Below, one piece after another: positions 40,328-64,000 of a stretch of DNA of 64,000 bases. The notes beneath the pieces were generated by a model, which made no database searches, was not told the origin of the DNA, and saw only the letters and a program-made list of their open reading frames with translations. The stretch comes from Gemmatimonadota bacterium (lineage in GTDB: Bacteria > Gemmatimonadota > Gemmatimonadetes > Longimicrobiales > Gaopeijiaceae): positions 1-64,000 of the forward strand of contig JADFSR010000005.1 in the NCBI GenBank assembly GCA_022560615.1, given 5' to 3'. Each line of letters starts with the position of its first letter. The first letter of the stretch is position 1. The translations under genes were made by a program, and so were the position numbers.

Positions 40328-41319
40328 GATGCGGCGCTCATATGCGCCAACGGCGCCCCGGCGCTGGCGCCCAGCGCGTCGATGACGAGATCCGCCAGCA
40401 CACCACCCATGTCCGGATGATCGTGTGGGGTCGCGACGCGGTGAAATCCCATGCCCAGCTTCTCTACGAACGCCCGCAACTCGAGGTCGATCTCGTACAG
40501 CGTCTCCGACTGTTCGTGGATGAAGCTCAGCGGGACGACCACGACGTGTTCGGCTTCAATCGTCGGCATCATCTTCTCATTCGACGGCTCGGTCCATTCG
40601 ATGGCCCGGTTCGAGTGGTTCTGGTATCCGAGCTCGTACCGATTCACGCCGGCGGCGTCCGCGATCAGTCGGCACGACTCCTCCACGTGCTCCTGATACC
40701 GGCTCCCATCCTCCAGATAGGAGATCGGAGTGCCATGAGCCGAGAAGTACAGGCACACGCCCGGGTCCTGAGCGTCGAGACCGCGCTCGGTCATCAGCGT
40801 TCGGATGCCGCCGGCTCGAAGCTCCACGTACTTCGCATTGCGGTGCCAACCCCCGACGAACGCCGTCTCCACGAGCCAGGAGAGCTTGTCGAGCTGCTCA
40901 CGCACCGTGTCCAGTGCGGCGACCGTCGTGGTCGGGCCGCTGACCGGGTACAGGGGAAGCGCCACCAGTTGCTCGACTCCGCTCTCGCGGCAGCGTTGCA
41001 GCGCGTCCGAGATCGTGGGCGTCGTGAACTGCGTTCCGACGAAGACGTGGGCAGAGTGGCTGCGCGCCTTCAGCGCCGCCTCGAGAGCCTCACCGTGGGC
41101 GTGCGTGTGCGCGTTCATGGGGGACCCGCCGATCTTCTGGTACGCTTCCATGAGTCCGGGTGCACGAGCCTCGGCGAGCTGCCGTGCGCGCTCGGCGCCG
41201 GAACCGGGTTCCAGTCCTCGGTTCGCGAGGAAGATGCGTTCCAGGAAATCGATCACCAGCTCGGGGTCCGACCCCTCAGGCTCGCCGAACGCGAGCAGGA
41301 CGACGCCGAGACGGCTCAC
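40324..41319 (-). CDS. hemH: ferrochelatase (coproporphyrin type inferred)
   Basis: A 331-residue metallochelatase inserting Fe2+ into a porphyrin. The catalytic His is in LYFSAHGTP and the conserved Glu in FIHEQSETLYEID. The N-terminus reads LLAFGEPEG, nearer to the LLAYGTP of coproporphyrin ferrochelatases than to LLNLGGP of protoporphyrin types. No 2Fe-2S C-terminal cysteines are seen. It is the first gene of the haem operon; 246 bases upstream separate it from the antiporter gene and must hold the promoter. Confidence 0.94.
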   Translation of the reverse strand: MSRLGVVLLAFGEPEGSDPELVIDFLERIFLANRGLEPGSGAERARQLAEARAPGLMEAYQKIGGSPMNAHTHAHGEALEAALKARSHSAHVFVGTQFTTPTISDALQRCRESGVEQLVALPLYPVSGPTTTVAALDTVREQLDKLSWLVETAFVGGWHRNAKYVELRAGGIRTLMTERGLDAQDPGVCLYFSAHGTPISYLEDGSRYQEHVEESCRLIADAAGVNRYELGYQNHSNRAIEWTEPSNEKMMPTIEAEHVVVVPLSFIHEQSETLYEIDLELRAFVEKLGMGFHRVATPHDHPDMGGVLADLVIDALGASAGAPLAHMSAAS

Positions 41320-44222: not shown

Positions 44223-47200
44223 CTACCGGGCTCCCCCGTGACGGAGGTACAGCACCGGCACCACAACCATGTTCAGCGCCAGTGATGTGAGGAGTCCGCC
44301 CAGCACGACGACGGCCATCGGGCTCTGGATTTCGTTTCCCGGCTCCCCACCCGACAGGGCAAGCGGCAACAGAGCGAGCCCTGCGGTCAGCGCCGTCATC
44401 ATGATCGGGCTCAGCCGCTCCATCGATCCCCTGACGACGGCGTCGTAGAGCTCCACGCCTTCGGCCCGCAGATGGTTGAAATGACTCACCATGAGGATGC
44501 CGTTACGGATCGCGATCCCGAACAGCGTGATGAATCCCACGAGCGTCGCGATGTTCAACACTCCCCCGGTGAGCCATACCGCGAAGACCCCCCCGACCAG
44601 CGCCAGAGGCAGGTTGACCATCACGAGGAGGGCTTGCCGAACGGAGCTGAACTCGACCAATAGCAGCAGGAAAACGGCCGCCAGAGAGAGTAGGCTCATG
44701 AGCCCGATGGTGCGCGAAGCCTCCCCAGCAGACTCGAACTGGCCTCCGTACTCCACGTAATAGCCTGCGGGCAGATCGACCACTTCCTGCACTTGCTGGC
44801 GGAGGTCCTCCACCACGCTGCCGACGTCACGGCCCGCCACGTTCGCCTGCACCACGATCTTTCTCTGGACGTCCTCCCTCGATATCGAGTTCGGGCCCAT
44901 GTCGAATCGCACGTCGGCGAGCATCCCGATCGTGACCTGTGAACCGACCGGCGTGTTGACGCGTGCGTTGCGCACCGTCTCCAAGCTCTTTCGGTGCTCG
45001 GCGGAGAATCTGACCACGAGATCGATGGCCCTCTGTTCCTCCAGTATCTGGGACACGACTTCGCCTGCGAGAGCTACATCAACGGCCTGGGCTAGGTGCT
45101 TCGGCGTCACGCCGTAGCGAGCCATCGCTCTCCGGTTCATGTCTATTCGGATCTGGGGCACGTCCGCCTGCTGCTCCATCGCCACATCCACTGTGCCAGC
45201 CACGCCCTGCGCGACCGACTCGATCTCCCTGGCGATCTGGCGCAGTTGATACAGGTCGGGCCCAAAGATCTTCACCGCGATACTGGCACGCGTTCCGGAA
45301 AGCATGTGGTCGATCCTATGACCGATAGGCTGCCCGATGGTGATCTGCGTCCCTGGCACGGCCGCGAGGTTCGCCCGCAACTCCTCGAGCACCACGTCGT
45401 AGTCATAGGCGTCGATGTCGAGGCGCACGTCGATCTCGGCCGCGTTGACTCCCTGAGCGTGCTCGTCGAGCTCGGCTCTGCCGGTACGGCGGGCCGTTTC
45501 GAGCACCGCCGGGTGGTCCAGAAGGATCTGCTCGATTCGGCGGCCCAGCGCGTCCGACTCGTCCAACGATGTACCCGGTACCGTGAGCGCACTGATCACT
45601 AACGACCCCTCTTGGAATTCCGGCAGAAACGAGCGGCCCAGGAAAGGGAAAGTCACCAGTGATGCGACCACGAGTGCCGCGGTACCCGCCATCACACGTG
45701 ACGGACGCCTGAGCACCGGTACAAGCATCGCCCCGTAGACCCGTTTGAGATTCCGTACGACCCAACTCTCTCTTTCCGTCTCCACCGCCTTTGAGCCCGG
45801 CAGTAGGTAGGCCGATAGCGCCGGTGTAACCGTCACCGCGACGACCAGCGAGGCCAGGATCGAGACGATGTAGGCGAACCCCAGAGGCCGGAGCATGCGC
45901 CCCTCGACTCCCGAGAGGAAGAGGAGCGGTATGAACACCACGATGATGATCAGCGTCGCTATCACGATGCTCCTAAGGATCTCCTTGGAAGCGTCGAATA
46001 CAACGTGGGATGCCGGCTTGCGTACGTCCTGAGGCCGTCGCTGATTCTCGCGAAGGCGCCGAAAGACGTTCTCCACGACAATCACCGCATCGTCCACGAG
46101 CGCGCCGATCGCGATCGCCATCCCTCCCAGCGTCATGGTGTTGATCGTGATATCCAGGAGCTTCAGCGCGAGGATGGCGGTGATGAGCGCAAGGGGAATC
46201 GCAAGCACCGAGATGGAAGTGGTACGGACGCTCCAGAGGAACAAGAAGAGGATCACGATCACGAGGATGGCGCCGTCACGGAGCGCTACCAAGACGTTGT
46301 TCACGGCGGTTCGGATGAAGTCCGCTTGCCGGAAGATGCCGCGGTTGATTTCCATTCCATCGGGCAGGGTCGCCTCGATGTTCGTGATCTCTCGATCGAT
46401 CCGATCGGTCAACTCGAGCGTGTTCGTGCCGGGCTGCTTCAGGACGGTGAGGATGACCGCCCTCGCGGCGTTCGCCGATCCCTCACCCAGACGAGTGGCG
46501 GCCCCGATACGTACCTCCGAGACGTCCCCGATGGTAATCGGTGTCCCGTTCCGAGCGGCCACAACGGTGAGAGCGACGTCTTCGAGCGCCTGAACTCGTC
46601 CTGTGGCCCGGATCAAGTACTCTTGTCCGCGGTCCATGAACACGCCGCCGGACGCATTCACATTCGAGCCCTCAGCCGCTCGAACTACCTCCTCGAGCGT
46701 CACGTCGAACGCCGCCAACCGATTTGGATCCACGAGGATCTGATACTCTCGTACCTCGCCGCCGAGTGGAATCACTTGAGCGACGCCTGGGATCGCGAGC
46801 AGGCGCCTGCGCAGGGTCCAGTCGGCCACGGTGCGCATCTCCATCGGCGTCACGGACCCGCTTCCGGTAACCGCGATCAACATGATCTCGCCCATGATGG
46901 ACGAAATGGGAGCGAGGCTCGGCATCCCCACTCCTCCAGGCAAACCCGCAGCCACCAGTTGGAGCTTCTCGTTCACGATCTGACGCGCCCGGAAGATGTC
47001 CGTGCCCCAATCGAACTCCACCCACACGATACTGATGCCCTGCGAGGTGGAGGAGCGAACCCGGCGTACGCCCGTCGCCCCGTTCACGGCCGTCTCGATC
47101 CGGAACGTGACCAGAGCCTCGACCTCTTCGGGGGCCATCCCATGAGCCTCGGTCAAGACGGTCACGGTGGGTGCTGTGAGGTCAGGGAACACATCCACCG

Positions 47201-47303
47201 GCATGCGAAGAGCCGTGATGGTTCCGCTAATGAGAAGCACTCCTGCTGCAACCGCCACGAGGAAGCGGTTGTCGATGGACCACCGAATGACACGGTCTAG
47301 CAT
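44223..47303 (-). CDS. RND heavy-metal efflux pump, CusA/CzcA family
   Basis: A 1026-residue inner-membrane proton-driven exporter with 12 TM segments in the RND layout: TM1 at the N-terminus, porter loop, TM2-7, second loop, TM8-12. [28 protein letters not shown] marks the HME branch. The TM4 motif is [15 protein letters not shown], lacking the D-F-G start of CzcA-type Co/Zn/Cd pumps and nearer to CusA (Cu/Ag) except for the second Asp. Substrate cannot be fixed. It starts 9 bases after the adaptor gene. Confidence 0.92.
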
Positions 47304-47312
47304 CGGACCCTC

Positions 47313-48818
47313 CTAGTGGGCGTGGCCGCCGGCGAAGTCGCCGCCGGAGAGGGAAGCGAGTCGCACCTGATACGCACCAACCGTGACCACCATGTCCCCT
47401 AGTCTGAGCCCCGTGACGATGTGGGTTCGCCTGCCGTCGGTGACGCCGAGCGTGAGAACCCGCCGCTCAAAGGTTTCGCCTCCGGATTGCACGTACGCCA
47501 CCGGCGTGCCGTTGTCATCCAGAATCGCGTCATTGGGGATCGCGATTCCGTTTACCAATCCACCTGTCGGTACGACAGCCTGGGCGAACTGCCCGAACGT
47601 AAGGCGCCCCTGCCCAGCCGCGACCTCGAAGACCACGGGAACGGTCCGCGTCGTGGGACTGATCACGCTCCCCACCGAACGCAGCCGAGCGTCGAAAACA
47701 TCCTGAGAGTCGTCCACAGTGAATAGCGCGTCCGCACCTGCACGCAGGTTGTTCGCTGTCGATGCCGGCACCTGCACCCGGAGCCACGCCCTGGATGGGT
47801 CGACTATGGTAAACAGCGACTCGCCCGCTTCCACGCGTCCACCGGGCACGAAGGTTCGCTCCGCGATCACACCCGACATCGGAGCGCGGAGAGTGAGTTC
47901 ATAGGCACCGTCCGTCCCGCCTCCCATCGCCTCCAGCTCAGCTTCCGCGATCTCGAGGTCGTGGCGAGCCTCCTCGAGGCGTCTGCCCGGGATCGCTCCA
48001 GCCTCGAAGAGTCTCCCATCTCTTTCCACTTCACGCCTCAGTCGCTCCACCCGCCCGCGTGATCGGGCGAAGCCGTCGTCCTGGCTGGTGGGAACCAGGA
48101 CAGCAAGGACTTGTCCCTGACTGACCCGGTCTCCTACAGACGGTGCGTCCCGGTTGGCCACCGCCGGGGCGATCCCGTCAGCCGGCGCACTCAACTGAAC
48201 TAGTGAGCCATCGGGAGGAACGATCTCACCCGGGGCCAGAATAGTGCGTTGAACCGCGTGTTCCGCAGCCGGGTGAACCGCGAACGGGATCACCCACTGT
48301 TGCTCTTTCAGGAACGAGATCCCAGACAGCTCTTCGGCCGCCTCGTGAGCGAGTGCTTCCTCCTCGCTGACGTGGACCACGACGTCTGAAACGACATGTC
48401 GACCGTCTACCTGATGACTCGCCAGGATCAGCTCCACCACGTAGGTCCCCGCTCGCTGAATCACGGGATCCAGCAGAAATATCCCGTCGCGGAGCGGGGC
48501 ATCCACGGTGAAGGTTTCCGCGGCGACTCCGTCCATCATGAAGCGCACCGTGAGCGTCCCAGCACGGATCGGCTGAAAGTCATCTCGATCCGTGAGGTGA
48601 ATCGCCCAGTTTCCGGTCCGTTGCCCAGCAACGAGAAACGGGTATTCGAGGAAGAGCTCGGTACCGTCGACCCATTGCGTCACGACGACCGCGCCGAGCT
48701 CCGGCACCTCTGGGGCGTTCTCGATGGCACCGCAGGCCGTGATCGGTAGGATCAACGACAAACCGGTAGCAGTCCTCAGCACTGTCATTAGCTGTGTGTT
48801 GAGTCGATCGCACGTCAT
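47313..48818 (-). CDS. RND periplasmic adaptor (CusB/CzcB-like) with N-terminal Ig-like domain
   Basis: A 501-residue membrane-fusion protein with a lipoprotein signal (LILPITAC). Residues about 45-160 form a YtkA/FixH-like beta domain (WAIHLTDRDDFQPI...YVVELILASHQVDG). The common linker FLKEQQWVIPF leads into the biotinyl-lipoyl, alpha-hairpin and beta-barrel domains (LSAPADGIAP..., LRAPMSGVIAERTFVPGG). It ends in GGHAH. The ATG at 48818 overlaps the tolC stop and has GGAG eight bases before it. Confidence 0.9.
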   Translation of the reverse strand: MTCDRLNTQLMTVLRTATGLSLILPITACGAIENAPEVPELGAVVVTQWVDGTELFLEYPFLVAGQRTGNWAIHLTDRDDFQPIRAGTLTVRFMMDGVAAETFTVDAPLRDGIFLLDPVIQRAGTYVVELILASHQVDGRHVVSDVVVHVSEEEALAHEAAEELSGISFLKEQQWVIPFAVHPAAEHAVQRTILAPGEIVPPDGSLVQLSAPADGIAPAVANRDAPSVGDRVSQGQVLAVLVPTSQDDGFARSRGRVERLRREVERDGRLFEAGAIPGRRLEEARHDLEIAEAELEAMGGGTDGAYELTLRAPMSGVIAERTFVPGGRVEAGESLFTIVDPSRAWLRVQVPASTANNLRAGADALFTVDDSQDVFDARLRSVGSVISPTTRTVPVVFEVAAGQGRLTFGQFAQAVVPTGGLVNGIAIPNDAILDDNGTPVAYVQSGGETFERRVLTLGVTDGRRTHIVTGLRLGDMVVTVGAYQVRLASLSGGDFAGGHAH

Positions 48819-50101
48819 CGTCGCGTCTCCAGGTCAGTCGTCGCGGGTCGCGAAGCGGCATCGAATCCACCGATCGCACGCTCCAGGTCGTAATAGGCCG
48901 TCCAAAGATCAGCCTTGAGTTGGGCGCGAGCGTTCCGAGCGCCCCAAAGCGCTTCGGCGGCATCCAAGATGTCCAGGAGGCCCATCTCTCCGAGGTCGTA
49001 CGCCACCTGCGCGATCTGAAGGAGATCGGAAGACGCATCCAGCCCATCGTCTGCCAGCAGGTCGGCCCGACGCTTCAGGCTCTCGTACGATTCCATCGCT
49101 CGACGAAGGTCGTTTTCCACCTGCCGCTGGGTCAGACCGAGACGCGTCCGGAAGGTGCCGACGCGTGCCTCGGCGCTCTCCACGGCCCCGGCGTTTCGGT
49201 CGAATAGCGGAATCGGGATCGATAAGCCCAAGAAGGCACCTCTCAGCCCGTCGGACTGACGCTTGTAGCCCCCTGTGGCCGTGACGTCGGGTAGCCGCTC
49301 GGCGCGCCTGAGCCGTACGGCCGCCACCGCCTCCTCTAGCTCCGCCTGGGCGGAAGCGATCTCCTGCCGGCGAGAAGTCAGTTCTCCCGTGACTGGTTCG
49401 AGAATCGGCTCCGGCGGAGTGTCACCGTCGAGCCCCATCGGTGACACCTCGACGACATCTGATTCCGGCAGAATGAGGAGCGCAAGGCTTCGGCGCGCCG
49501 AGGAGCCGCGGATCTCGGCGCCCGCCAATAGATTTTCGTAGCGCGCACGCTCGACGACGATTCGCCTGAGGGCGTAGCGAGAGATGTCCCCTTGAGCCTC
49601 CCGGACCACCGCGCTCCGGGCAGCCTCGCGAAAAACTCCGGCGACCCGCTCGGTCACGGCCAGCACCTCCTCCGCGAGCACCGCCTCCACGTAGGTCCGC
49701 TTCACATCGAACGCGAGGCGGGCGCTGTCGGCGCGTAATCGCGCCTGGGCCGCCCGCACCGCCCATGCCGCCCCTTCAGTCCGGGCGCTCCGCTGGCCTG
49801 GAAGTTCGAGGCGTTGGCTGAGGGTGAAATACGATTCCAAATAGTCGACTGTGCCCCCAGACAGTGGCTCGTGCGTGACACTCGCCGTCGGGTTGGGGAA
49901 GGCTCCCGCCTGTCGGGCAACCCCGCGCGATTCCGCCAGCTGGAGCCTCGCGACGCGGAGGTCGAGGTTGTTGGCTGCGAAGAGGCGAAGCGCCTCATCG
50001 ACAGTCACGCGCCGGCTTGGACTTTGGGCCACCAAGGCTGTGGCCCAAAGCCCGAGGGCGACAGCTAGCACGAGGATTCTGGTCGTGCGATTCACGGTCA
50101 T
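48815..50101 (-). CDS. TolC-family outer-membrane efflux protein (CzcC/CusC-like)
   Basis: A 428-residue protein with a signal peptide (ending ALVAQS). Two TolC repeats are visible by their helices: VTVDEALRLFAANNLDLRVARLQLAESRG at the start and RQEIASAQAELEEAVAAVRLRRAERLPDV in the second half. It forms the outer-membrane exit duct for the RND pump encoded downstream in the same operon. Confidence 0.92.
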   Translation of the reverse strand: MTVNRTTRILVLAVALGLWATALVAQSPSRRVTVDEALRLFAANNLDLRVARLQLAESRGVARQAGAFPNPTASVTHEPLSGGTVDYLESYFTLSQRLELPGQRSARTEGAAWAVRAAQARLRADSARLAFDVKRTYVEAVLAEEVLAVTERVAGVFREAARSAVVREAQGDISRYALRRIVVERARYENLLAGAEIRGSSARRSLALLILPESDVVEVSPMGLDGDTPPEPILEPVTGELTSRRQEIASAQAELEEAVAAVRLRRAERLPDVTATGGYKRQSDGLRGAFLGLSIPIPLFDRNAGAVESAEARVGTFRTRLGLTQRQVENDLRRAMESYESLKRRADLLADDGLDASSDLLQIAQVAYDLGEMGLLDILDAAEALWGARNARAQLKADLWTAYYDLERAIGGFDAASRPATTDLETRR

Positions 50102-52469: not shown

Positions 52470-53424
52470 CAGTCGGTTGTCAGGACTCGTCGAAACCCCG
52501 GGCTGCTCGTTCGCAGCTTCGAGAATCTGAAGGCCGTCGACCTGAGCTTCGACCCGGACAACGTGCTCAGCATGCAGATTTTCATGTCCCCCGCACGCTA
52601 CCCCGACGCGGTCGCCCGCAGGGCGTTCATGGCGGATGCCGAGTCTCGTCTGGCGAGGATTCCGGGGGTCGAGAGCGTCGGTTCGGTGAACTCCCTTCCG
52701 CTCGCATCCTTCGATGGGGACGTCACCTTCACCATCGAGGGCGAAGCGCCTCCGGAGCCTGGTGAGCAAATCGTCTGGCTCCGTGGCGACCGTCGGCTGC
52801 TTTGACGCGATGCAGATACGACTCGTGGCCGGACGCGCGTTCGACGCCAACGACAAGCACGACGAAACGCAGGTCATCATCATCAACGAGACGCTCGCCA
52901 ACCGGTACTTCGGGAGCGCGACGGAGGCGGTCGGCCAGCGCCTCAACGTGAACTCGCCCGAGAACGCTGTCTGGCGTCCGATCGTCGGGGTGGTGCGGGA
53001 CATCAAGAACTTCGGGCTCCGCGCAGGCGACCGGAACGCAATGTACGTCCCCTTCAACCAGATCTCATCTGCCTTCATGTTTACGGTCGTTCGTACCGCG
53101 GGCGATCCGCTGACCGTTGCGAGCGCAGTCCGTAAGGAAATCGCTGAGGTCGACGCGACGATCGCGGTGGCGCTGCTCCAACCAATGGAGGATCTCGTGT
53201 TCGACGCATTCGCGACCGATCGCTCTTCGACCGCCCTTCTCACACGCTTCGCGATGATGGGCGTGCGTATCGCGTTCGGCGCGGAGAGCAGCTCCATCCG
53301 TGGACTCGTGATGCGCCGGGCGCTCGGCTTGGCGCTCATGGGCAACGGAGCCGCCGTACTCGCGAACCTCGTGCCCGCGGTGCGAGCCACAAGGATCGAC
53401 CCCATCAAGGTCCTCAGCACATGA
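52470..53424 (+). pseudogene. decayed ADOP/MacB permease
   Basis: From about 52510 the frame reads LLVRSFENLKAVDLSFDPDNVLSMQIFMSP, typical of the middle of an ADOP protein. It runs to EGEAPPEPGEQIVWL near 52785, where a frameshift moves the rest (VGCFDAMQIRLVAGRAFDAN...) to the next frame. The end keeps VVRDIKNFGLR and VPAVRATRIDPIKVLST but has lost the final FtsX membrane helices. No N-terminal half exists. Its stop overlaps the ATG of the M48 gene. Confidence 0.8.
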
Positions 53425-54860
53425 CCACTCTCCTGCGCATGTCGCTCGTCATGATCTTCGCTGGGTGTGCCGTGAACCCGGCCACCGGTCGTCGGGAGTT
53501 CTCCCTCATCAGCGAGAGTCGGGAAATCGAGATGGGACGAGAGGCGGATGCGGACATCTCCGCCTCGCTCGGACTGGTCGATGACCCCGCGCTCCAGAGC
53601 TACGTCTCCGACATCGGGCACCGTCTGGCCGCGGTCTCCGAGCGCCCGCACCTCCCGTGGTCTTTCAAGGTCGTAGACGATCCACTCGTCAACGCGTTCG
53701 CGCTGCCCGGCGGATTCATCTTCGTGACGCGCGGCATCCTCGCCAACTTCGAGTCAGAGGCGGAGCTGGCAGGCGTACTCGGGCACGAGATCGGTCACGT
53801 TACCGCGAAACACTCGGTATCCCAGATGAGTCGGCAGCAGCTCCAACAGATCGGGCTGGGTGTCGGTATGGTCTTCTCGTCCAGGGTCCGTCGCTTCGGT
53901 GACGTCCTGGGCGTGGGCCTCCAACTCATGAACCTCCGTTACTCACGGGGGAACGAGTCCGAGTCCGATGAACTGGGCGTGCGCTACATGACCCGGACCG
54001 CCTACGACCCCGAGTCGATGATCGGAGTCTTCCAGATGCTCGCAACGGTGTCCGGTGGCGAGGGGGAACGGATTCCGCAGTGGCAGCTCACGCACCCCTA
54101 CCCCGAGAACCGCGAGACCGACATTCGTGAGTTGATCGCCGCATCGGGGAGTGCGGCCGGGGGCACGGTGGCCCGAGGTGAGTACCTGGATCGTATCGGC
54201 GGTCTCGTCTACGGGTCGAACCCGCGGGAGGGGTACTTCATCGGCGACCGTTTCGTGCACCCTGACCTCGAGTTCGACGTGACGTTTCCGGAGGGCTGGG
54301 CAGGGGTGAACGAACGCTCTTACGTGGCGGCGTCGAGTCCCGCGGAGGACGCAGTGATGATCCTACGGCTCGCGGAGGACGCCACCGATCCGCGCGCCGC
54401 GCTGCGCTCCTTTCTCGCCCAAGACGGCGTCTTCGGCCGCGGCGTGCGCAACGATGACAGCGACGGGATCTCGGTCAGCCGCGCTACTTTCACCGCCGAC
54501 TCCGGCGACGGCACGCTGCGAGGCGAAGCGGCGTTCATCGGTCTCGACGGGCGCGTATATCAACTCTTGGGGTTCGCAGACGAAGTCACCTGGCGGCAGT
54601 ACTCGGGCGTGGTGGCGACATCTCTCTCGAGCTTTACTCGACTCACGGACCGACGGACGCTCGAGGTGCAGCCGTGGAGGCTGGAAGTGGTGGCGCTGCC
54701 CGAGGATATGTCGCTTCGAGACTTCCACGGCCGGAATCCCGGTCCGGTCTCCGTCGAGGAGCTCGCGAGGTTGAATCGTCTAGCGCCGGACGTCGTAGTG
54801 CCTGCGGGCACGCGCCTCAAGCGTGTCGTAGGCACGACCCTCCCGGGCCAAGCACGATGA
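53421..54860 (+). CDS. M48-family metalloprotease lipoprotein
   Basis: A 479-residue protein with a lipobox (MIFAGC, C16). The zinc site is H122-E-I-G-H126 followed by RYSRGNESESDELG, supplying the third ligand; FALPGGFIFVTRG is the family strand. It resembles BepA/LoiP-like periplasmic proteases that act on outer-membrane proteins. Beyond about residue 260 is a long non-catalytic region (DRFVHPDLEFDVTFPEGW...) ending in a LysM-like stretch (VEELARLNRLAPDVVVPAGTRLKRV). Start overlaps the permease relic. Confidence 0.9.
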   Translation: MTTLLRMSLVMIFAGCAVNPATGRREFSLISESREIEMGREADADISASLGLVDDPALQSYVSDIGHRLAAVSERPHLPWSFKVVDDPLVNAFALPGGFIFVTRGILANFESEAELAGVLGHEIGHVTAKHSVSQMSRQQLQQIGLGVGMVFSSRVRRFGDVLGVGLQLMNLRYSRGNESESDELGVRYMTRTAYDPESMIGVFQMLATVSGGEGERIPQWQLTHPYPENRETDIRELIAASGSAAGGTVARGEYLDRIGGLVYGSNPREGYFIGDRFVHPDLEFDVTFPEGWAGVNERSYVAASSPAEDAVMILRLAEDATDPRAALRSFLAQDGVFGRGVRNDDSDGISVSRATFTADSGDGTLRGEAAFIGLDGRVYQLLGFADEVTWRQYSGVVATSLSSFTRLTDRRTLEVQPWRLEVVALPEDMSLRDFHGRNPGPVSVEELARLNRLAPDVVVPAGTRLKRVVGTTLPGQAR

Positions 54861-54875: not shown

Positions 54876-55406
54876 CTAGTTTCCGGTCTCTTCCGTATTC
54901 GCGGCGACGTACGCGGCCGCGAATTCCGCGATCTTGCCGTCGATCGCGCCCTCGAGCGCGGCGGCCGCGTCGTCGAAACTCGCGATACCGATCTCGGTGG
55001 CGTACCAGGTGACCGCTTCCGGGAGCGTGACCTGGGTGTCCCGAATCATCTGCGCGGACTGTTGCACGCGCACCGACACCCCGTACGCGAGCATCCCCGC
55101 GGTTCCCTCGCCCGCCCCCGTCACGCACTCGACGGTGATCCGGAACTCCGGCAGCCCCGCATTCTCGAGCATTTGCTCCTCGGTGAGCACATCGACGCTA
55201 GCCTCGATGAGCTTCAGCGCGGACTCGGCCAGGAGCGAGGAGGCCGTCACACCGGCGCTCTCACACGCCCCGTCGGCCTCGGCCCGGACGAATACACCGC
55301 CGAGGCCCTCCAAGGTGTACCGGTTCCATTCCGTGTCCTGAGCTTCCAGGCCCACGGGGATCGTAAGAACCGTCAGCGCGGCGAGCGCGGACAGGTACCG
55401 TTTCAT
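54876..55406 (-). CDS. exported protein of unknown function
   Basis: A 176-residue protein with a signal peptide (YLSALAALTVLTIPVGLEAQ). The mature part alternates strands and helices (RYTLEGLGGVFVRAEADG, FRITVECVTGAGEG) and has two cysteines that could pair. ATG at 55406 is preferred over an upstream start because it places the signal sequence at the N-terminus. It may be the last gene of the exported-protein cluster; no family recognised. Confidence 0.6.
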   Translation of the reverse strand: MKRYLSALAALTVLTIPVGLEAQDTEWNRYTLEGLGGVFVRAEADGACESAGVTASSLLAESALKLIEASVDVLTEEQMLENAGLPEFRITVECVTGAGEGTAGMLAYGVSVRVQQSAQMIRDTQVTLPEAVTWYATEIGIASFDDAAAALEGAIDGKIAEFAAAYVAANTEETGN

Positions 55407-55435
55407 GTTCGCTCCGACTGCGTGCGGTACGGGTC

Positions 55436-57373
55436 TCAGTTCCCGCGACCCTCTCCGCACGACCTGCACTCGTGGTTGTTTTTCGAACCGAGCTTCTCGA
55501 GCAGCGCGACGGTCGCAGGATGCGGCTGCGCGCGCTGCTCGGGGCTGTTCGCCATGTCCGCGGTGGTTTGTCCGCGCCGGCTGATCAGCGTGACGTCAGC
55601 GCCCTGACTGACCAGGTAGAGAATCGTCTCGCTGTCACCGCGCGCCGCAGAGTGGTGCAGCGCGGTGAAACCGTCTTGGTCGCGCAGGTTGGGATCGACG
55701 CCCAACTCTTCAATGAAGTACTTCATCGAAGGCAGCCACCCGTCGGGCACGCTGCGGTGCTGCTGCGCAACGCGGGACGTGCCGAAGCCGACGCCCGCCG
55801 CCGCGTGCATCGGATGGATCCCGAGCCCTCCAACGGGAATCGGTGCCAGTCCGGAAGGATCGACAGGCTCCGGCTCGTCGTTCACCGGGTTGTTCGGAAT
55901 GTCAGGATCCCGGTTGAAGCGCCGGCGGGCGGGAAGCTTGATCGTCCAGACGTCGGGGTCGGCACCGTACGCCACGAGCAGCTTCATCGCGTTCACGTCG
56001 GTGGCGTAGGCTGCGCGCCAAAATGGCGTTGCGCCCGTGAAGTCCACACCCATGCGCCCTGCGTTGTACGCTGCGTACCAGATATGCGTTGTGGTGCGCT
56101 GGTTCGGATCGGCGCCGGCCTCGAGCAGAGCTCGAGTGAGGTCCAGATACGACGTGGACTGCCCGCGAAACGCTCCCGGCTGCGGATACCACGTGCGCAG
56201 CGACCACTCGATGTTCAGCGTCGCGAAAAGCGGACCCGCTCCATCGTCGCTGACCAAGTTCGGATCCGCGCCGTGCTCAACGAACTCCTCGGCCAAGTCG
56301 TAGTGTCCGTTGATCACGGCGACCAGAAGCGGGCTCGACTCGTCACCGCCGGTGACCTGGTCGATGTCCGCCCCGGCAGCGACGAGGAGCTGGGCAGCAT
56401 TAACGTGGCCCTCGCGTGCCGCGTAGTGCAGCGCGGTGAAGCCACCCTGCTTCCCGATCTGCTCGATGGACGAGAGCGCGCGTATGGGCGGCTCGTCTGT
56501 CTCGTCCGGGTCGGCTGTCTCGTCCGGATCGGCTGTCTCGTCCGGGTCGGCTGTCTCGTCCGGGTCGGCTGTCTCGTCCGGGTCGGCTGTCTCGTCCGGA
56601 TCGGCTGTCTCGTCCGGGTCAGGCGTCTCGTCCGGGTCGGGCGTCGCCGCTGCGGCTTGCGCACGTTGCGGCGGTCCACCACGCCCACCTCGGGCCTCAG
56701 GACGCTGATCGGGCGGCAGCTCGGCGTCGCGCACACGGGTGCGCCGGGCGCGGTCCTCGTTGTTGGCGTTCGAGATCTCCTCGTAGTCCTTGACGTCGGT
56801 CGCCGCGGACAGATCCGCGCCGGCGTCGATGAGCGCCTGCATCGCGGCGGTCGAGTTTCCAACGGCGGCGAACATCAGAGGCGTGCGGCTCGAGCGGGAA
56901 TCGCGCGAGTCGACCTCCGCGCCGTGCTCAACGAGGACTCGGATGGCCTCGGCCGAGTTGGCTTGAGCTGCAAAGTGAAGCGGGCTGACTCCAGTGTTTG
57001 TGAAGCCGTTGGCGTCAGCCCCTCCTTCCAACAGTGCGCGTACAACGTCGCCGTGCCCGTTCCGGCTGGCCAGGTGCAGCGGCGTATAGCCACCGAGTCG
57101 GGTGGTCGGCTTCACGGTCGCGCCGGCATACAGGAGCACTTCGACGATCTGTACGTCGTCGTTCATCGCAGCCCAGTGCAACGCTGTCGTGCCATCCGCC
57201 TGCGCACCGTTGGCGTCCGCACCGTCACGCAGGAGTGTGCGAACGGCCTCGAGATCGCCGCGCTCGGCGGCGTCCGCAACCGGCGAGTCAGCCGGTGTGC
57301 CCGCCACGAGCAGTAGGCTCAAGGCTACAATCGATCCCATGTGGAAACCGACCTTCATTCGTGCTGCCGACAT
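55436..57373 (-). CDS. exported ankyrin-repeat protein with DPDET tandem repeat
   Basis: A 645-residue protein with a signal-like N-terminus (GSIVALSLLLVAGTPADS). At least eight ankyrin repeats are visible, for example GTTALHWAAMNDDVQIVEVLLYAGA, GYTPLHLASRNGHGDVVRALLEGGA and, near the end, GFTALHHSAARGDSETILYLVSQGA. Between the fourth and fifth groups a basic/Gly segment leads into an acidic spacer of eight DPDET units (about 245-290). It starts at an ATG with GGGAG upstream, 27 bases after the DUF1552 gene, in the same operon. Likely a periplasmic protein-binding scaffold. Confidence 0.85.
   Translation of the reverse strand: MSAARMKVGFHMGSIVALSLLLVAGTPADSPVADAAERGDLEAVRTLLRDGADANGAQADGTTALHWAAMNDDVQIVEVLLYAGATVKPTTRLGGYTPLHLASRNGHGDVVRALLEGGADANGFTNTGVSPLHFAAQANSAEAIRVLVEHGAEVDSRDSRSSRTPLMFAAVGNSTAAMQALIDAGADLSAATDVKDYEEISNANNEDRARRTRVRDAELPPDQRPEARGGRGGPPQRAQAAAATPDPDETPDPDETADPDETADPDETADPDETADPDETADPDETADPDETDEPPIRALSSIEQIGKQGGFTALHYAAREGHVNAAQLLVAAGADIDQVTGGDESSPLLVAVINGHYDLAEEFVEHGADPNLVSDDGAGPLFATLNIEWSLRTWYPQPGAFRGQSTSYLDLTRALLEAGADPNQRTTTHIWYAAYNAGRMGVDFTGATPFWRAAYATDVNAMKLLVAYGADPDVWTIKLPARRRFNRDPDIPNNPVNDEPEPVDPSGLAPIPVGGLGIHPMHAAAGVGFGTSRVAQQHRSVPDGWLPSMKYFIEELGVDPNLRDQDGFTALHHSAARGDSETILYLVSQGADVTLISRRGQTTADMANSPEQRAQPHPATVALLEKLGSKNNHECRSCGEGRGN
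56499..56642. repeat. 18-bp tandem repeat (8 copies) inside the ankyrin gene
   Basis: Eight direct copies of GTCTCGTCCGGGTCGGCT with one or two substitutions (copies 2 and 6 have A at position 11; copies 7 and 8 end in AGGC/GGGC). On the coding minus strand each encodes A/P-DPDET. The near-identity of copies suggests recent slippage, and any change of copy number stays in frame. Confidence 0.92.
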
Positions 57374-57399
57374 ATCGCGCTCCCGCTCGGGATCGGTGC

Positions 57400-58788
57400 T
57401 CAGACCGAGAATGTGCCCGTGCTGTTGCCGAAGGAGTCCAGGTCGTCCAGGCCCATCCCGTGCAGGAGGTCGAGGAAGACGTTGGCCATCGGGGTGCCAA
57501 TGGGCGCGCGCAAGTGCTCGCCGCCCTTCAGCAAACCGTTCGCGCCGCCCACCAGGAAGAGCGGACAGCGGATGTGATTGTGAAGATTGCTGTCGGCCAT
57601 CGCGGAGCCGTACATGACCATTGTCTTGTCGAGCAGATTCGCGTCGCCCTCCTGATAGTCCTGCAGCTTCTGCAGGAAGTACGGAATCATCGACACGTGG
57701 TAGGCGTTGAGCTTGGCGAAGTTCTCGACTCGATCCTCGCGGCCACCGTGGTGCGAAGCCGAGTGGAACGGCGTCGTGGTGCCCGCCTCGGGAAATACCC
57801 GCGGCGAAGCGTCGCGACCCAGCTTCAGCGAGAAGACGCGCGTGGTGTCCGCGATGAAGGCGAGCACCTGGAGGTCGAACATCAGCTTCACGTGCTCTTC
57901 GAACGAGTCCGGGACGCCGACGGGCGCCTCGGGAATCTCACGCTCGTCTCCGCCTGAGTTCCGTGCCTCGGTCCGCTGAATGCGCTGCTCGAGCTCCCGG
58001 ATGTTGTTCGCGTACTGGTCGAGCCGCTGTTGGTCCTCCGGACCCAACTTACGCCGCATCAGCTTCATCTCGCCCAGTACCCAGTCGAGAATGCTGCCGT
58101 CCGTCTGAAGCCGCTGTGCCCGTTGCTCCGGTGTTCCTCCGGCGCCGAACAGCTGCTCGAAGACGGCTCGCGGGTCGCGGATCATCGGGAGCGGTTCCGT
58201 CGGCGACGCCCAGCTGATCGTGTCCGTGTAGACGCACGCGTAACCGTACGCGCAGCCGCCGGCCTGATCCACATTCTCGATCGAGAGCTGCATCGAGGGG
58301 ATCGGAGTATCCCCACCGAAGCGTTGCGCGAAGATCTGGTCGAACGAAATCCCGCTGTAGACGTCGGAGCCCTCGGTCTGCTTCGGGTGGGCCTGCGTCA
58401 GGAAAACAGCGGTAGTGCGGAAGTGGTCACCACCGATCTCCTTCGCGGCCTTCGCGTCCGCCTCGCGACAATCCGTGTCGGACACGATGGTCAGATAGTC
58501 ACGGAACGGCTCGAGCGATTTCATGCTCGTGGGCGAGAGGTCGAAGTCACGCCCCGTCTTGGCCGGCGACCACAGGTTGAGCGAAGCGCCGAGATCGTTG
58601 CATCCGGCAGCCCCGTGCACCTGCTCGATGCACACCAGCCGCGTCTTGTCGGCAGCCCTGCCCGCCTCCGTCGCCGCCCGCAGACGGTTCGCCGGAACCA
58701 TGGCATCGAGGAGAGGAAGACCCACGGCCGCACCCATGCCGCGAAGCATCGTGCGCCGCGAAATGTGCATTCCGGTGATGTAGTTCAT
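57400..58788 (-). CDS. DUF1552 domain protein with Tat signal
   Basis: A 462-residue protein. A twin-arginine motif (SRRTMLRG) and hydrophobic stretch at the N-terminus indicate Tat export. The body follows the DUF1552 family: ADKTRLVCIEQVHGAAG, SLEPFRDYLTIVSDTD, SIENVDQAGGCAYGYACVYTDTISW, and a C-terminus with VMYGSAMADSNLHNH and NVFLDLLHGMGL. The family resembles sulfatase/DUF1501-type folds but its activity is unknown. It follows the DUF1592 gene by 42 bases, the usual partner of DUF1552. Confidence 0.9.
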   Translation of the reverse strand: MNYITGMHISRRTMLRGMGAAVGLPLLDAMVPANRLRAATEAGRAADKTRLVCIEQVHGAAGCNDLGASLNLWSPAKTGRDFDLSPTSMKSLEPFRDYLTIVSDTDCREADAKAAKEIGGDHFRTTAVFLTQAHPKQTEGSDVYSGISFDQIFAQRFGGDTPIPSMQLSIENVDQAGGCAYGYACVYTDTISWASPTEPLPMIRDPRAVFEQLFGAGGTPEQRAQRLQTDGSILDWVLGEMKLMRRKLGPEDQQRLDQYANNIRELEQRIQRTEARNSGGDEREIPEAPVGVPDSFEEHVKLMFDLQVLAFIADTTRVFSLKLGRDASPRVFPEAGTTTPFHSASHHGGREDRVENFAKLNAYHVSMIPYFLQKLQDYQEGDANLLDKTMVMYGSAMADSNLHNHIRCPLFLVGGANGLLKGGEHLRAPIGTPMANVFLDLLHGMGLDDLDSFGNSTGTFSV

Positions 58789-58830
58789 CGCTTCGGACCT
58801 CGCTCGAGGTTACGTAGTCGGTTCAACAAG

Positions 58831-61263
58831 TCAGTTCTGGCCAGCCTGATCGGCCACGGTCGCCCGCGCCGACAGGAACGCAGGGCTCTGCGCGACGCCG
58901 AGCACGAAGGAAGAGACCCTATAGTCGTTCTTGGCCGCTTCACGCGTGATCGAACGGATCGTAGGCATATCGTAGTACTCGACGCGACGGCCCAGCGCGT
59001 ATGCCATCAGGTTCTCGGTAAAGACTCTGAAGAACACTTCACGGCGGCTGAGCAGCGCGTTACGGAGGTCCCCCGGACCGTTCAATGGCGTCCCGTCGTA
59101 GAGCTCGGACGCCGGATCGACGAGGTTGCCGCCGTCACGCGCCCGCCAGGCCCCGGTTACGTCGAAGTTCTCGAGCGCCAATCCGATGGGGTCGATCACC
59201 TTGTGACACGACTGGCACGCGGGGTTGGCCCGGTGTTCCTCCATGCGCTCGCGCACGGTGAGGAAGCGCCCGTCGGTCGCGTCCGCGGTCTCTTCGAACG
59301 CGGGCACGTCCGGGGGCGGGGGCGGCGGCGGAGAGCCGAGCAACACTTCAAGGACCCACTTGCCGCGAAGAACCGGCGACGTGCGGTCGGGGTGCGACGT
59401 CAGCGTCAGAATGCTGCCGTGCCCGAGCAGACCTCGACGCGTCTCGTCCAGGTACGAGACCTTCTGGAATTCAGGACCCGTCACACCGGGAATCCCGTAG
59501 TGCCGCGCGAGACGCTCGTTCACGAACGTGTAGTCGGCGGTCAGCAGCTCGAGCACGGACCGGTCTTCCGCCACGAGGTGCGCGAACAGGAGCTCGGTCT
59601 CGCGGTGCATCGCGTCCGCGAGTGTTTGATCGAAGTACGGATAGGTGAGTGCGTCGGGCTGGACCTTGTCGAGATCTTGGAGACGGAGCCACTGAGCCGC
59701 GAAGCGAGTCGCGAGGGCCTCCGCCCTGGTGTCGACCAACATCCGCCGCACCTGTCGTTCGATCTCCGAGGAGTTCGAAAGGTCCCCGTCCTCCGCGAGT
59801 CGCAGCAGTTGCTCGTCCGGCGGCATGCCCCAGAGGAAGAAAGAGAGCCGGGACGCCAAATCTATGTCGCTGATGCGATAGATGTCACCCGGCCGCACGT
59901 TGTCGGGCCGCTCTTCCATACGGAAGAGGAAGTGCGGGCTGGTCAACATGGCCTGGAGCGCCGTGCGGATGCCGCCCTCGAAGCCGCCGTCGGCCGCGCC
60001 GCGATCGTAGAACGTCAGCAGACCGTCAACGTCGTTCTGCTGCACGGAACGCCGGTACGCTTTCGCGGCCATGCGTGCGACGATCTCACGAGCACACGGC
60101 CGAGCCTCATCCGGTGAGGTCGGGCGGCAGCTGAAGACGATGCGACGCGTGGGAGTTTCCGACACGCCCGTGACCTCGAACGGGCCCAGGACCGTCATGC
60201 GCTGGAGATGCTGCTGCGTCGTCACACCCAGCCCGACACCGATCTGTCCGTCTGCGAGCGTATGGTCGATTGGCCGGATCAGGTCGTCCACGGCACCCTC
60301 GTACTGGCGCACGAAGGCAGCCGTCACACGCTTGGGCCCCGCGGTGACCTGGATAGAGTCCGTCCGGATGTTCAGACCCGAGGGCTCGGACTCCGACATC
60401 CACCGGTCGACGGGCAGTAGCGCCACCCGTTCACCGTCGATCGAGACCTCGATCTGCTCATAACCGTAGGGCCGAGCGAAGACCTCACCCTCGACCGCGG
60501 CGTACGGCATGATGTGGAAGACGTACTTCCCATCGGCCGGAAAGTTGTGCACCACGGACAGCCCACCACGCGTTCCGAACGGCGCACCCTCGACCCGCTC
60601 CCTCTGGGACTGAACTCGGGGAACGCGGTAGATCGTATTGCCGACCTCGGCATCCGGGTCTCCGAGAGCGACGCGAACGATCTGTCCGGCCGCCCGCAGG
60701 TAGCCTTCCATGACAGTCGTCGACGGCATCTGCACGTCGGCGATGTTGTCGAAGTTGGCGCTCTTGGTATCGAGGGGCAGGAAGCTGCTCACGTCCACGT
60801 CGATTCCGAGCACGTCGCGAACCGCCCCTCGGTACTCGGCCCGGTTGAGCCGCTGGAACGTGCGCGCGCCGGGGTTCGGGTTCCGCGCGGCAGCCCGATC
60901 GACGATGGTCTCCAACTCCCTCGCAACCGCCTGGAGCACGGCTTCTTCCGGCCGCCGGGCTCCCGAGGGCGGCATCATGCCCACGCGGAGCTTCCGAATC
61001 ATCCTCTCGACGGCCTCGGCATTCTCCGGCGCGTTCGCGACATCGAAGCCTTCCAGTACGAGCTCGCCGCGCCGCATCCGCTCGCTGTGGCAGCGGGTGC
61101 AGTATTGGTCTACTACGGCGTTCGCACCCTCATAGCTGCTGGGAACCGGATGCGCGGTCGTGGCGAGCATCCCGGCCGAAGAGGGCTGACCCGGCCCGGT
61201 GCAGGTAGCGAGCGCTACGCCCAGGCATGCGACCATCGGGATCGCAAGTGAGGATTTCCTCAT
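58831..61263 (-). CDS. DUF1592/DUF1588/DUF1587-type haem-c lipoprotein
   Basis: An 810-residue exported protein with a lipoprotein-like signal (GVALATC). A planctomycete-type cytochrome c motif C55-T-R-C58-H lies near the N-terminus and a second CQSCH near the C-terminus. Between them are the DUF1587 (FQRLNRAEYRGAVRDVLGI), DUF1595, DUF1592 (ADYTFVNERLARHYGIPGV) and DUF1588 (RTSPVLRGKWVLEVLLG) segments and a C-terminal DUF1585 region. It is presumably a periplasmic or surface redox enzyme subunit; substrate unknown. Confidence 0.9.
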   Translation of the reverse strand: MRKSSLAIPMVACLGVALATCTGPGQPSSAGMLATTAHPVPSSYEGANAVVDQYCTRCHSERMRRGELVLEGFDVANAPENAEAVERMIRKLRVGMMPPSGARRPEEAVLQAVARELETIVDRAAARNPNPGARTFQRLNRAEYRGAVRDVLGIDVDVSSFLPLDTKSANFDNIADVQMPSTTVMEGYLRAAGQIVRVALGDPDAEVGNTIYRVPRVQSQRERVEGAPFGTRGGLSVVHNFPADGKYVFHIMPYAAVEGEVFARPYGYEQIEVSIDGERVALLPVDRWMSESEPSGLNIRTDSIQVTAGPKRVTAAFVRQYEGAVDDLIRPIDHTLADGQIGVGLGVTTQQHLQRMTVLGPFEVTGVSETPTRRIVFSCRPTSPDEARPCAREIVARMAAKAYRRSVQQNDVDGLLTFYDRGAADGGFEGGIRTALQAMLTSPHFLFRMEERPDNVRPGDIYRISDIDLASRLSFFLWGMPPDEQLLRLAEDGDLSNSSEIERQVRRMLVDTRAEALATRFAAQWLRLQDLDKVQPDALTYPYFDQTLADAMHRETELLFAHLVAEDRSVLELLTADYTFVNERLARHYGIPGVTGPEFQKVSYLDETRRGLLGHGSILTLTSHPDRTSPVLRGKWVLEVLLGSPPPPPPPDVPAFEETADATDGRFLTVRERMEEHRANPACQSCHKVIDPIGLALENFDVTGAWRARDGGNLVDPASELYDGTPLNGPGDLRNALLSRREVFFRVFTENLMAYALGRRVEYYDMPTIRSITREAAKNDYRVSSFVLGVAQSPAFLSARATVADQAGQN

Positions 61264-61397
61264 TCCTGGCAGCTCCTGGAAGTCTCTTGAACCACGGTCC
61301 CTCCGTTAGGTCCCCCGCACGCGCGAGGCAGACCACTGACAACGTACGATAATACGTTGTGTTGCGGCAATTTTTCCAGGGCTCGTGTGTGGCGTCC

Positions 61398-62852
61398 TCA
61401 ACTCCCATCCCCATCCGAGATCGGGCGGACGGCCTTGAGCACCTCGCGGGTGAGGTCCCATCGGTTGAAGCCCTGACGGCCGTAGTCCAGTCCACGACGC
61501 ACGATCACCAGGTCGTGCGAGGGGACCACGATCACGTACTGACCTCGGTTCCCTGAGGTGGAGTAGGCGCTTTTCGGCACGTCGTTCCGATCGTCCGGCA
61601 CGAGCCACCACTGTCCCCCGTAGTGGTTTCCCCGCTCCGCGGTCGCCGGAGCCGGCGTGCGCACGAAGTCGATCCATTCGTGGGAGAGCAGCCGCTCGCC
61701 GTCCCACACGCCGTCTTGCAGATAGAGCATCCCGAAGCGCGCGAGGTCACGCGCATTGGTGTAGACCTGGCTGCTCATGATGAAGTCGCCGAAACGGTCC
61801 ACGCTCATCAGCGTGTTGCGCATGCCGATGCGGTCGAGCAGCGCCTTGCGCGGATACTCGAGGTAGGCCTGGTCGTCGCCGATCGCGCGCTTCATAGCGA
61901 GGACCCCGAGCAGCGTGTCGTAGTTCTCGTAGTCCCAGCTCGTGCCCGGCTCCCGTATCAGCGCCCGGCTCAGAGCCCCGCGCACGGAGCTCGCGCCCGC
62001 CCAGTATGCCAGGCCCGACCCGGTGGCGTATTCCAGGCCCCGACTGTCCACGGTGTTGAGCCCACTCGACATGTTGAGCACGTGTCGTAGCGTGATCGCG
62101 TGCCTGGGATCCGTCTCGGGCGAGGCCTGTCGCGGCAGCCACTCGAAGCCGAGGGACTCGTCGAGGCTGAGGCGCCCATCGTCGGCCATCATGCCCATGA
62201 GGGTCACCGCGAGGCTCTTGGCGGTCGACCATGTGCGCGTGCGGGTAGACATGTCGAAGCCGTCCGCGTACCGCTCATGAACGATGTCCCCACCCTGCAC
62301 CACGATCAGACTGAGCGTGACCTGCTCCGGCGACTCGCGCTCGAACGCCCAATCGGAGGCAGCCTGCAATGCGACCGGGTCGAGGTTGGAGGGGAGCGTC
62401 TTGTCCGCCACCCAGTCGCCTTCCGGCCACGGGATCGTGGCAGCGTCTCCTGGAAGCGGAGGTGTGTCGATGATCGGTAGGTCGTCGATGTCCTCGAAGG
62501 TCTGATCCGGCGCGAGAATCACGCACCCGATGCCTTGCCGGAACGCCGCGCGCATGATCGGCGTGCCGCCCGATGCGCCGATCGCTACGGCCTTTCGGTC
62601 CCAGTCGACCTCGTAGTCACCGCCGCGGGGTGTGCCGACCGGCTGGCGGAGGTACTTGAGCTCCTTGTCGAAGACCTGCTCGAGCGTCCGATTCGACGTG
62701 AACAAGCCATTGCACATGAAGATCGCCTGTTGGCCGTGCTGGATCATGTCCCGTTGCGCGCGCCAGTAGTCGTACGACTCCTGCTGCTGGGCGTGGCTCG
62801 GCGCGGGAAGCAAGAGCGCGGCGGCGAAGAGGATCGTGGTCATGCGATTCAT
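61398..62852 (-). CDS. exported serine hydrolase (beta-lactamase/class C-like)
   Basis: A 484-residue protein with a signal peptide (LLLPAPSHAQ). The serine-hydrolase core has S209-T-A-K212 (SxxK), Y308-E-N310 (YxN) and a C-terminal TSGNRGQYVIVVP that replaces the KTG triad. The N-terminal 150 residues are a separate region typical of this exported subfamily. It may hydrolyse esters or peptides rather than beta-lactams. ATG overlaps the stop of the upstream copper/haem protein gene (ATGA). Confidence 0.85.
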   Translation of the reverse strand: MNRMTTILFAAALLLPAPSHAQQQESYDYWRAQRDMIQHGQQAIFMCNGLFTSNRTLEQVFDKELKYLRQPVGTPRGGDYEVDWDRKAVAIGASGGTPIMRAAFRQGIGCVILAPDQTFEDIDDLPIIDTPPLPGDAATIPWPEGDWVADKTLPSNLDPVALQAASDWAFERESPEQVTLSLIVVQGGDIVHERYADGFDMSTRTRTWSTAKSLAVTLMGMMADDGRLSLDESLGFEWLPRQASPETDPRHAITLRHVLNMSSGLNTVDSRGLEYATGSGLAYWAGASSVRGALSRALIREPGTSWDYENYDTLLGVLAMKRAIGDDQAYLEYPRKALLDRIGMRNTLMSVDRFGDFIMSSQVYTNARDLARFGMLYLQDGVWDGERLLSHEWIDFVRTPAPATAERGNHYGGQWWLVPDDRNDVPKSAYSTSGNRGQYVIVVPSHDLVIVRRGLDYGRQGFNRWDLTREVLKAVRPISDGDGS

Positions 62853-64000
62853 TCTGGACTCCCCGGGTTTCGCTGCGACCCCGTCGGCCCGAAAAGTTCC
62901 TCCGGGATCTTCTCCCCTGCCACGAACCGCCTCGGCTCGACCTCGGTGTAGGACATGAAGCCGTAGCCCATTTCGTCCGTTGTGGGCCGTCCCCAGCCCA
63001 CAGCACGGTCCGGGTTCGGGTTGTGGGGGTTGCCGGCCGAGTTATCCCACCAGAGCGTGAGGTCGATCTTGGTTCCCGCCGGGGCGAGGACAGGCTCGTT
63101 CAAGATGTACGTGTGCTGCCAGTTGAAGTCGTAGCGCGGTACGTGCAACAGCGTCTCCTTCTCACCGCCCGGCAGTGTGATCTCGTACAGGGCGGCCTTG
63201 CCGCGCAGGTGCATGTGCGGGAGCATCCACAGGATATTCACGTCCTTCTCGAACGTGTGCTCACTACGGAAGGTGTAGTTGGGATCGTTCGCCGGGATCT
63301 CGAAGCGGAACATGCCCAGGGACTGGCTCTGGACTACGTGGTCGATGATCTCGCCCGGCGCGTAGAAGACGATCGCCGCAGACGTCTGGTCCCAGACCGC
63401 GGTGCCTTCGCCGGGCGTCTTGTGGTAGTGCATGCTGAACGTCACGGTCGTGCCTTTGCGCAACACCGTCCCGTACCCGTCGGGAAACACGCGCGGCGCA
63501 TTGCCCGGCGCGATGCCGCCGATGGGGCTCGCTATGACGTGGTGGACCGCGGAGCTGCCGGCGCGGAACTCCACCGCCTTGACCCATCGATCTTCCGGAA
63601 GCATGTCCGCGGTGATCGGCACTTCGAAGTCGATGTACTGGTCCTCGATCGTATCGTGAACCAGGTACGGCTCCGGTAGCCGCACGATCAGGTCCGGTTC
63701 GCCGATCGACCAGCCGTTCGTCGCCATGTTGAACTCCGCCGCCGGCGGCGCGTCGGCCGGATCGCCGGCAAGGGTCCCGGACCGGGCCCAGGCCAGTAGT
63801 GTCGCGATCTCAGAGTCCTCGAGCACGCGCTCGTTCGAAAAATCTCCCTTGTGCTCACGGGCCGCATGCCACGGGGGCATCCTTCCGGTGCGGACCGCGC
63901 GCGCGATGCGGGGAGCCCATTCCTTGGTCGTCTCGTAGCTGGTGAAGGCCACGGGCGCGACCATGCCCCCGAGATTCTGTCCGCTCTCCATGTGACAGAC
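62849..64000 (-). CDS. haem-c / PHM-like copper monooxygenase-fold protein (partial)
   Basis: At least 383 residues, N-terminus cut by the window end. The frame continues past the ATG at 63991 as V-C-H-M-E-S-G-Q, so that Met is internal and the C-H is the end of a haem c motif, with a distal Met likely in VRTGRMPPWHA. The rest resembles type II copper ascorbate-dependent monooxygenases: AVHHVIASP, TFSMHYHKTPG and ILWMLPHMHLRGKAALYE, which carry His/Met copper-ligand patterns. Similar proteins neighbour DUF1592/DUF1552 genes in other soil bacteria by general knowledge. Confidence 0.75.
   Translation of the reverse strand, partial: VCHMESGQNLGGMVAPVAFTSYETTKEWAPRIARAVRTGRMPPWHAAREHKGDFSNERVLEDSEIATLLAWARSGTLAGDPADAPPAAEFNMATNGWSIGEPDLIVRLPEPYLVHDTIEDQYIDFEVPITADMLPEDRWVKAVEFRAGSSAVHHVIASPIGGIAPGNAPRVFPDGYGTVLRKGTTVTFSMHYHKTPGEGTAVWDQTSAAIVFYAPGEIIDHVVQSQSLGMFRFEIPANDPNYTFRSEHTFEKDVNILWMLPHMHLRGKAALYEITLPGGEKETLLHVPRYDFNWQHTYILNEPVLAPAGTKIDLTLWWDNSAGNPHNPNPDRAVGWGRPTTDEMGYGFMSYTEVEPRRFVAGEKIPEELFGPTGSQRNPGSPE

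Follow-up and report, generated by a model that had tools for sequence, protein, structure and literature searches.

Do the exported-protein genes at one end of this stretch of Gemmatimonadota DNA form a single oxidative system, or have some of them joined an older unit? The stretch, called the window here, comprises positions 1-64000 of contig 5 of a 4.5 Mb genome in 105 contigs, whose relatives are uncultured Gemmatimonadota, some of them named Longimicrobiales or BD2-11. The genes form a minus-strand run at contig positions 64159-54879 and encode, in order, a cytochrome-c/PHM-like copper protein (PHMc), a serine hydrolase (SerH), a two-haem protein (PSD), a DUF1552 protein, an ankyrin-repeat protein (ANK), and a small protein (HYP). 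PHMc and SerH overlap by 4 bases, the next spacings are 134, 42, 26, and 29 bp, and the run carries three haem-c motifs in total. An earlier note described the first five genes, in this order and direction and with an overlap or modest gaps, as one undescribed redox system. The layout is confirmed, with HYP as a sixth gene, but the idea of one five-gene system is not supported, since PHMc and SerH fail on co-conservation. Comparison of sequences across genomes indicates that PSD-DUF1552-ANK, here together with HYP, is an inherited unit across the phylum and that PHMc and SerH lie outside it.

The survey behind this answer took one genome per species from 84,980 species and found close DUF1552 relatives at 79 loci, 59 of them with both flanks testable. 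In 52 of these 59 Gemmatimonadota loci DUF1552 stands between an immediately preceding PSD and a following ANK, all three on one strand, and the triad is present in all six loci from other families or classes of the phylum. The source genome has eight DUF1552 genes. PSD precedes every one of them and a co-directional ANK follows six; one of the remaining two has ANK nearby on the opposite strand, and the other has none. Pairwise distances of PSD, DUF1552, and ANK correlate with r of 0.88-0.91, versus at most 0.16 in shuffles. A sample of 150 Gemmatimonadota genomes contained the DUF1552 family PF07586 in 55 cases, and the copies of PSD/DUF1552 reach 12-13 per genome. The same triad is also carried by a Novosphingobium plasmid. 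HYP (54879-55406), an exported protein of 176 aa, matches neither a Pfam nor an NCBIfam family; it comes after ANK in 34 of 35 close-orthologue loci and in none of 28 more distant ones. Four DUF1552 loci labelled Gammaproteobacteria (L081, L086, L087, and L097) were considered as transfer to another phylum and rejected; the loci themselves resemble those of Gemmatimonadota. The metagenome-assembled genome record with L081 has contigs and coordinates identical to those of a same-family Gemmatimonadota genome, and its label seems wrong; because of this duplication, the loci so labelled are no evidence of wider spread.

PHMc and SerH are distributed differently. In none of 60 testable relative loci do the 6.5 kb upstream hold a PHMc or SerH on the same strand, and both genes stand upstream of the core solely here and in a second genome of the same genus (G001). 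SerH orthologues of 73-75% identity occur in four other genera, on contigs without a DUF1552 match. Since the two genes are missing upstream in the 60 relatives and present in G001, and SerH orthologues exist elsewhere, PHMc and SerH are regarded as additions in this lineage, and the sequence comparison makes it most likely that they joined the locus there. The neighbourhood comparison proposed in the earlier note thus shows conservation for the core, whereas for PHMc and SerH it extends just to G001. The source genome has ten or more further PHMc paralogues, at loci without a PSD/DUF1552 match, and no PHMc relative was found in the plasmid records searched. By a simple pattern check, several of the more than ten cytochrome-c/PHM paralogues of this genome lack one or more copper motifs.

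PHMc (62852-64000 in the window; 436 aa) starts at contig position 64159, 160 bp past the window edge, and the window holds just the VCH of its haem motif. Extension of the contig past 64000 recovers the start, a lipoprotein signal, and the complete motif CQVCH at residues 52-56. The next upstream open reading frames (ORFs) have the opposite orientation (plus strand), and directly before PHMc no other gene is seen on its strand. Its copper ligands are H206, H207, and H244 together with H315, H317, and M397, with codons from 63542-63544 down to 62969-62971, the Met ligand being assigned from position and conservation. No ligand is missing in the alignment with 16 relatives, where the five His residues are invariant and M397 is nearly so. 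The haem residues C55-H56 are kept across the same relatives, and one truncated open frame is without the first haem Cys. PHMc has no Pfam match above cut-off (PF03712, E 0.079), and its family profile matches dopamine beta-hydroxylase (4zel, E 2.4e-4) with the His ligands aligned. Because of the conserved ligands and this profile match, the PHM-like assignment proposed in the earlier note stands on sequence. In sequence, PHMc resembles the PHM and dopamine beta-hydroxylase copper monooxygenases in five His and one Met copper ligands and differs from them by an N-terminal haem-c domain. SerH (61401-62852), an exported hydrolase of the beta-lactamase/6-aminohexanoate-dimer-hydrolase family, matches the Pfam beta-lactamase family PF00144 and has the motifs S209-x-x-K212 and Y308-x-N310, in agreement with its first description as a serine hydrolase. 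SerH was also considered as a regular neighbour of such loci, because PF00144-type hydrolases occur near modules C34 and C29 too, but this was set aside since such genes are numerous in the genome.

All five proteins could still act as one oxidative system, in which PSD would pass electrons to the PHM-like copper enzyme, this enzyme would hydroxylate or cleave an extracellular polymer, and SerH would hydrolyse the product. The intact copper ligands and haem of PHMc, the tight spacing on one strand, and the shared layout of two species in the genus agree with such a system, and the X183 domain of Cbp2D can reduce a copper monooxygenase (PMC8981238). However, the absence of both genes upstream in the 60 relatives, the paralogues at loci without a PSD/DUF1552 match, the haem that PHMc has of its own, and the promoter-like site in the 134 bp that separate SerH from PSD make it improbable. 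In the SerH-PSD gap (61264-61400) the promoter-like site TGGAAA-18-TATTAT lies at about 61378-61349, no terminator-like site was found on the minus strand, and the sequence is partly kept in G001. Two promoter-like sites were found in the region versus 1.0 expected by chance, and these signals weakly suggest that the PSD-DUF1552-ANK core may have its own promoter. Of the earlier reading, export, haem c, the intactness of the copper ligands, and a link between the DUF1592 protein and carbohydrates are supported; a single joint system is not.

PSD (58834-61263; 810 aa) has five PSD/PSCyt3 domains above the Pfam cut-off, in the order DUF1587-DUF1595-DUF1592-DUF1588-DUF1585, and a weak PSCyt1. Haem 1 (CTRCH, 61101-61087) belongs to the N-terminal domain, with MMPP at 60978-60967, and haem 2 (CQSCH, 59217-59203) lies inside DUF1588. 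The two haem-c sites are more than 620 residues apart, and both motifs are present in every full-length relative aligned. PSD had been called a two-haem DUF1592 lipoprotein; the haem motifs and domains are borne out, but the lipoprotein part is doubtful because the lipobox at Cys21 (L-A-T-C) is poor and this Cys is absent from many orthologues. The predicted model (predicted template modelling score, pTM, 0.76) contains a jelly-roll domain at residues about 204-362 (60178-60654) that has no Pfam annotation. In this model the jelly roll is closest to the carbohydrate-binding modules (CBMs) CBM36, CBM6, and CBM35, with 2dcj_B as the best match (Z 9.8, root-mean-square deviation 2.6, 104 residues), and the CBM-type matches are limited to residues 203-365. 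For the PSD model Foldseek gave one match below 0.001, BIRC6 (prob 0.47, TM 0.09), which was set aside as a spurious match between helices. Neither single PSD and DUF1552 sequences nor profiles retrieved any relatives in sequence searches of the PDB.

ANK (55439-57373; 645 aa) has an export signal, Pfam ankyrin repeats, and an acidic DPDETA repeat linker, and is thus the exported ankyrin protein that was first described. The linker is coded by an 18-bp tandem repeat (56489-56640, 8.4 copies), and the protein has 671 aa in G001. Periplasmic AnkB of Pseudomonas is a catalase helper, and by likeness to it ANK could be a helper in an envelope defence against oxidants, with PSD as a di-haem peroxidase-like protein. 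A di-haem protein does adjoin an exported ankyrin here, and a table of a Rhodopirellula stress study lists a DUF1552 gene (PMC2754498). In contrast, the PSD sequence profile has no match to di-haem peroxidases in the PDB, and up to 12-13 copies per genome together with starch-binding and sugar-dehydrogenase fusions suit substrate diversity better, which leaves oxidant defence with a small probability.

The DUF1552 protein (57403-58788) matches PF07586 (HXXSHH) with 291 bits against a cut-off of 30 and carries the Tat signal RRTMLRG, as expected for the Tat-exported DUF1552 protein of the earlier description. Its model (pTM 0.81) has the predicted fold of the alkaline-phosphatase superfamily, with sulfatases, ENPP, and MCR-1 at Z of about 14 and a top score of 14.7 to a sulfatase. 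H122, the motif H342-x-x-S345-H346-H347, H403, C179, and C185 do not vary among paralogues with identities as low as 38%. The residue at the place of the strand-1 Asp (E55) varies and is not Asp, and His122 lies roughly at the position of the Ser/Thr/Cys nucleophile; these equivalences to sulfatases were assigned by reading the sequence alignment. The DUF1552 protein would therefore share the fold of the alkaline phosphatase/sulfatase superfamily while apparently lacking its conserved first Asp and nucleophile, with an invariant His set instead. On the predicted fold, DUF1552 could be a plain sulfatase- or phosphatase-like hydrolase, with PSD as an accessory binding protein whose haems serve only stability or sensing. 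A study of freshwater Verrucomicrobia also reports that sulfatase genes often neighbour PSCyt genes (PMC5615132). A plain hydrolase is nevertheless unlikely, as the E55 position does not appear conserved, a His seems to stand where the nucleophile is expected, and the two haems of PSD are strictly kept.

Three other contexts (Pseudoalteromonas, Sphingobium herbicidovorans, and Planctomyces SH-PL62) tie PSD-DUF1552, by analogy, to electron flow and sugars. On the Pseudoalteromonas plasmid pPBSW1 (locus L222, 775-8599), a 2157-aa protein combines three CBM26 stretches, a pyrroloquinoline quinone (PQQ) glucose/sorbosone dehydrogenase, cytochrome c, and the PSD domains, and DUF1552 is the next gene. 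This 'starch-binding protein' has cytochrome c, DUF1587, DUF1595, DUF1592, DUF1588, and DUF1585 followed by DUF1552, as here; unlike PSD, it is fused to the three CBM26 and the PQQ sugar dehydrogenase and has no adjoining ankyrin gene. The gene order in S. herbicidovorans is DUF1592-DUF1552-cytochrome c'-cytochrome b561, and in Planctomyces SH-PL62 it is DUF1587, DUF1592, DUF1552, and then a 3-keto-disaccharide hydrolase.

Several of these elements are already described. PSCyt3 genes of Verrucomicrobia were reported in 2017 to adjoin usually a family of function-unknown genes, and the paper names DUF1552, though not in the passage on these genes (PMC5615132). The PSCyt3/DUF1552 pairs of Planctomycetota and Verrucomicrobiota share with this locus the PSD domain set, the adjacent partner gene, and many copies per genome; the available text mentions no ankyrin, whereas an exported ankyrin is the regular third gene here (PMC5615132). 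Cbp2D of Cellvibrio japonicus consists of CBM2, an X183 cytochrome, X132 with CxxCH, and DUF1587 (PMC8981238, PMC12542752). Growth on insoluble cellulose requires Cbp2D (PMC12542752), whose X183 can reduce a lytic polysaccharide monooxygenase (LPMO; PMC8981238). By published architecture, PSD shares a CxxCH cytochrome domain, DUF1587, and a second CxxCH in a long domain with Cbp2D and with the X183-X132 proteins TERTU_2913 and TERTU_3803 of Teredinibacter (PMC8981238, PMC12542752, PMC10916295). In contrast to Cbp2D-type proteins, PSD is without CBM2, X158, and FN3, has the internal CBM36/6/35-like jelly roll, and is encoded beside DUF1552 and ANK. Profile searches with its N-terminal haem domain gave no X183 match at the sequence-profile level. 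No LPMO_10 was found in the source genome, so PSD is unlikely to supply an AA10 enzyme here in the manner of Cbp2D. The system is thus not wholly undescribed as claimed, given the gene pairs of 2017 (PMC5615132) and the overlap with Cbp2D (PMC8981238, PMC12542752); the claim appears to hold for the ankyrin partner. In the literature searched, DUF1552 is named in just two papers and DUF1592 in two. The PSD-DUF1552 pair is already known and the ankyrin partner appears new; no description of it was found in the literature searched, most subscription journals being outside the reach of that search.

The triad is tentatively proposed to work outside the cytoplasm as an oxidoreductase complex on carbohydrate-like compounds, with PHMc and SerH as local additions, a reading for which belief and doubt are nearly balanced with doubt slightly ahead; substrate, metal, and electron path are inferred. 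DUF1552 would carry the metal and act as the catalytic or substrate-processing subunit, folding and taking up its metal in the cytoplasm before it is exported by Tat. PSD would use its jelly roll to bind the substrate and would pass electrons from the active site to haem 2, then to haem 1, and on to a cytochrome, while ANK would hold or mature the complex. The substrates would likely be sugars or other oxygen-rich compounds. PHMc and SerH, as later local additions, may share substrate or electrons with the triad in this genus. It is doubtful, though conceivable, that the triad is an extracytoplasmic oxidoreductase of a new class. Redox chemistry would then take place at a His metal site rebuilt into a sulfatase-like fold, a di-haem protein that binds carbohydrate would be wired to this fold, an ankyrin protein would assemble the whole, and paralogues within one genome would serve different substrates.

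Some observations weigh against the proposed unit and its role. Seven of the 59 loci depart from the triad, five with ANK only and two with neither PSD nor ANK. Genome relatedness contributes to the distance correlation, and the five modules within the source genome alone give r of 0.60-0.76. The Sphingobium and Planctomyces pairs are without an ankyrin neighbour, and ANK is therefore not essential everywhere. Jelly rolls of the TNF/C1q type score Z 7.4-8, just below the CBM match of Z 9.8. The DUF1552 model has a mean predicted local distance difference test score of 70.6, which is low at the H122 loop, and a single five-His site is only putative. In the literature searched, no measured substrate, metal, or electron transfer was found for any DUF1552.

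The run has further neighbours. A BepA-like M48 peptidase gene adjoins it at 53421-54857 (plus strand), and a SerH orthologue in another genus is also beside a similar-looking M48 gene (locus L183, 7882-10860), so that an old origin of the SerH-M48 neighbourhood is possible. A short plus-strand ORF at 52714-53424 partially matches the MacB periplasmic core domain (profile positions 96-203) and is probably a truncated permease gene. The minus strand carries a tandem resistance-nodulation-division (RND) efflux set at 44223-50101, with an AcrB-family pump, a HlyD/CusB-type adaptor, and an outer-membrane efflux protein. At 34479-41319, also on the minus strand, lies a near-complete unidirectional haem biosynthesis cluster of URO-D, a chlorite-dismutase/HemQ family member, HemB, HemD, HemC, HemA, and ferrochelatase. 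Beyond the window, a plus-strand ORF at contig positions 66833-68458, 2.7 kb upstream of the run, is GMC-type oxidoreductase-like by eye.

PSD and DUF1552 are frequent in Planctomycetota and Verrucomicrobiota, and no established function was found for any of them. The fixed third partner, the predicted fold with its His site, the CBM-like domain, and the sugar-dehydrogenase fusion make the function of PSD/DUF1552 open to specific tests.

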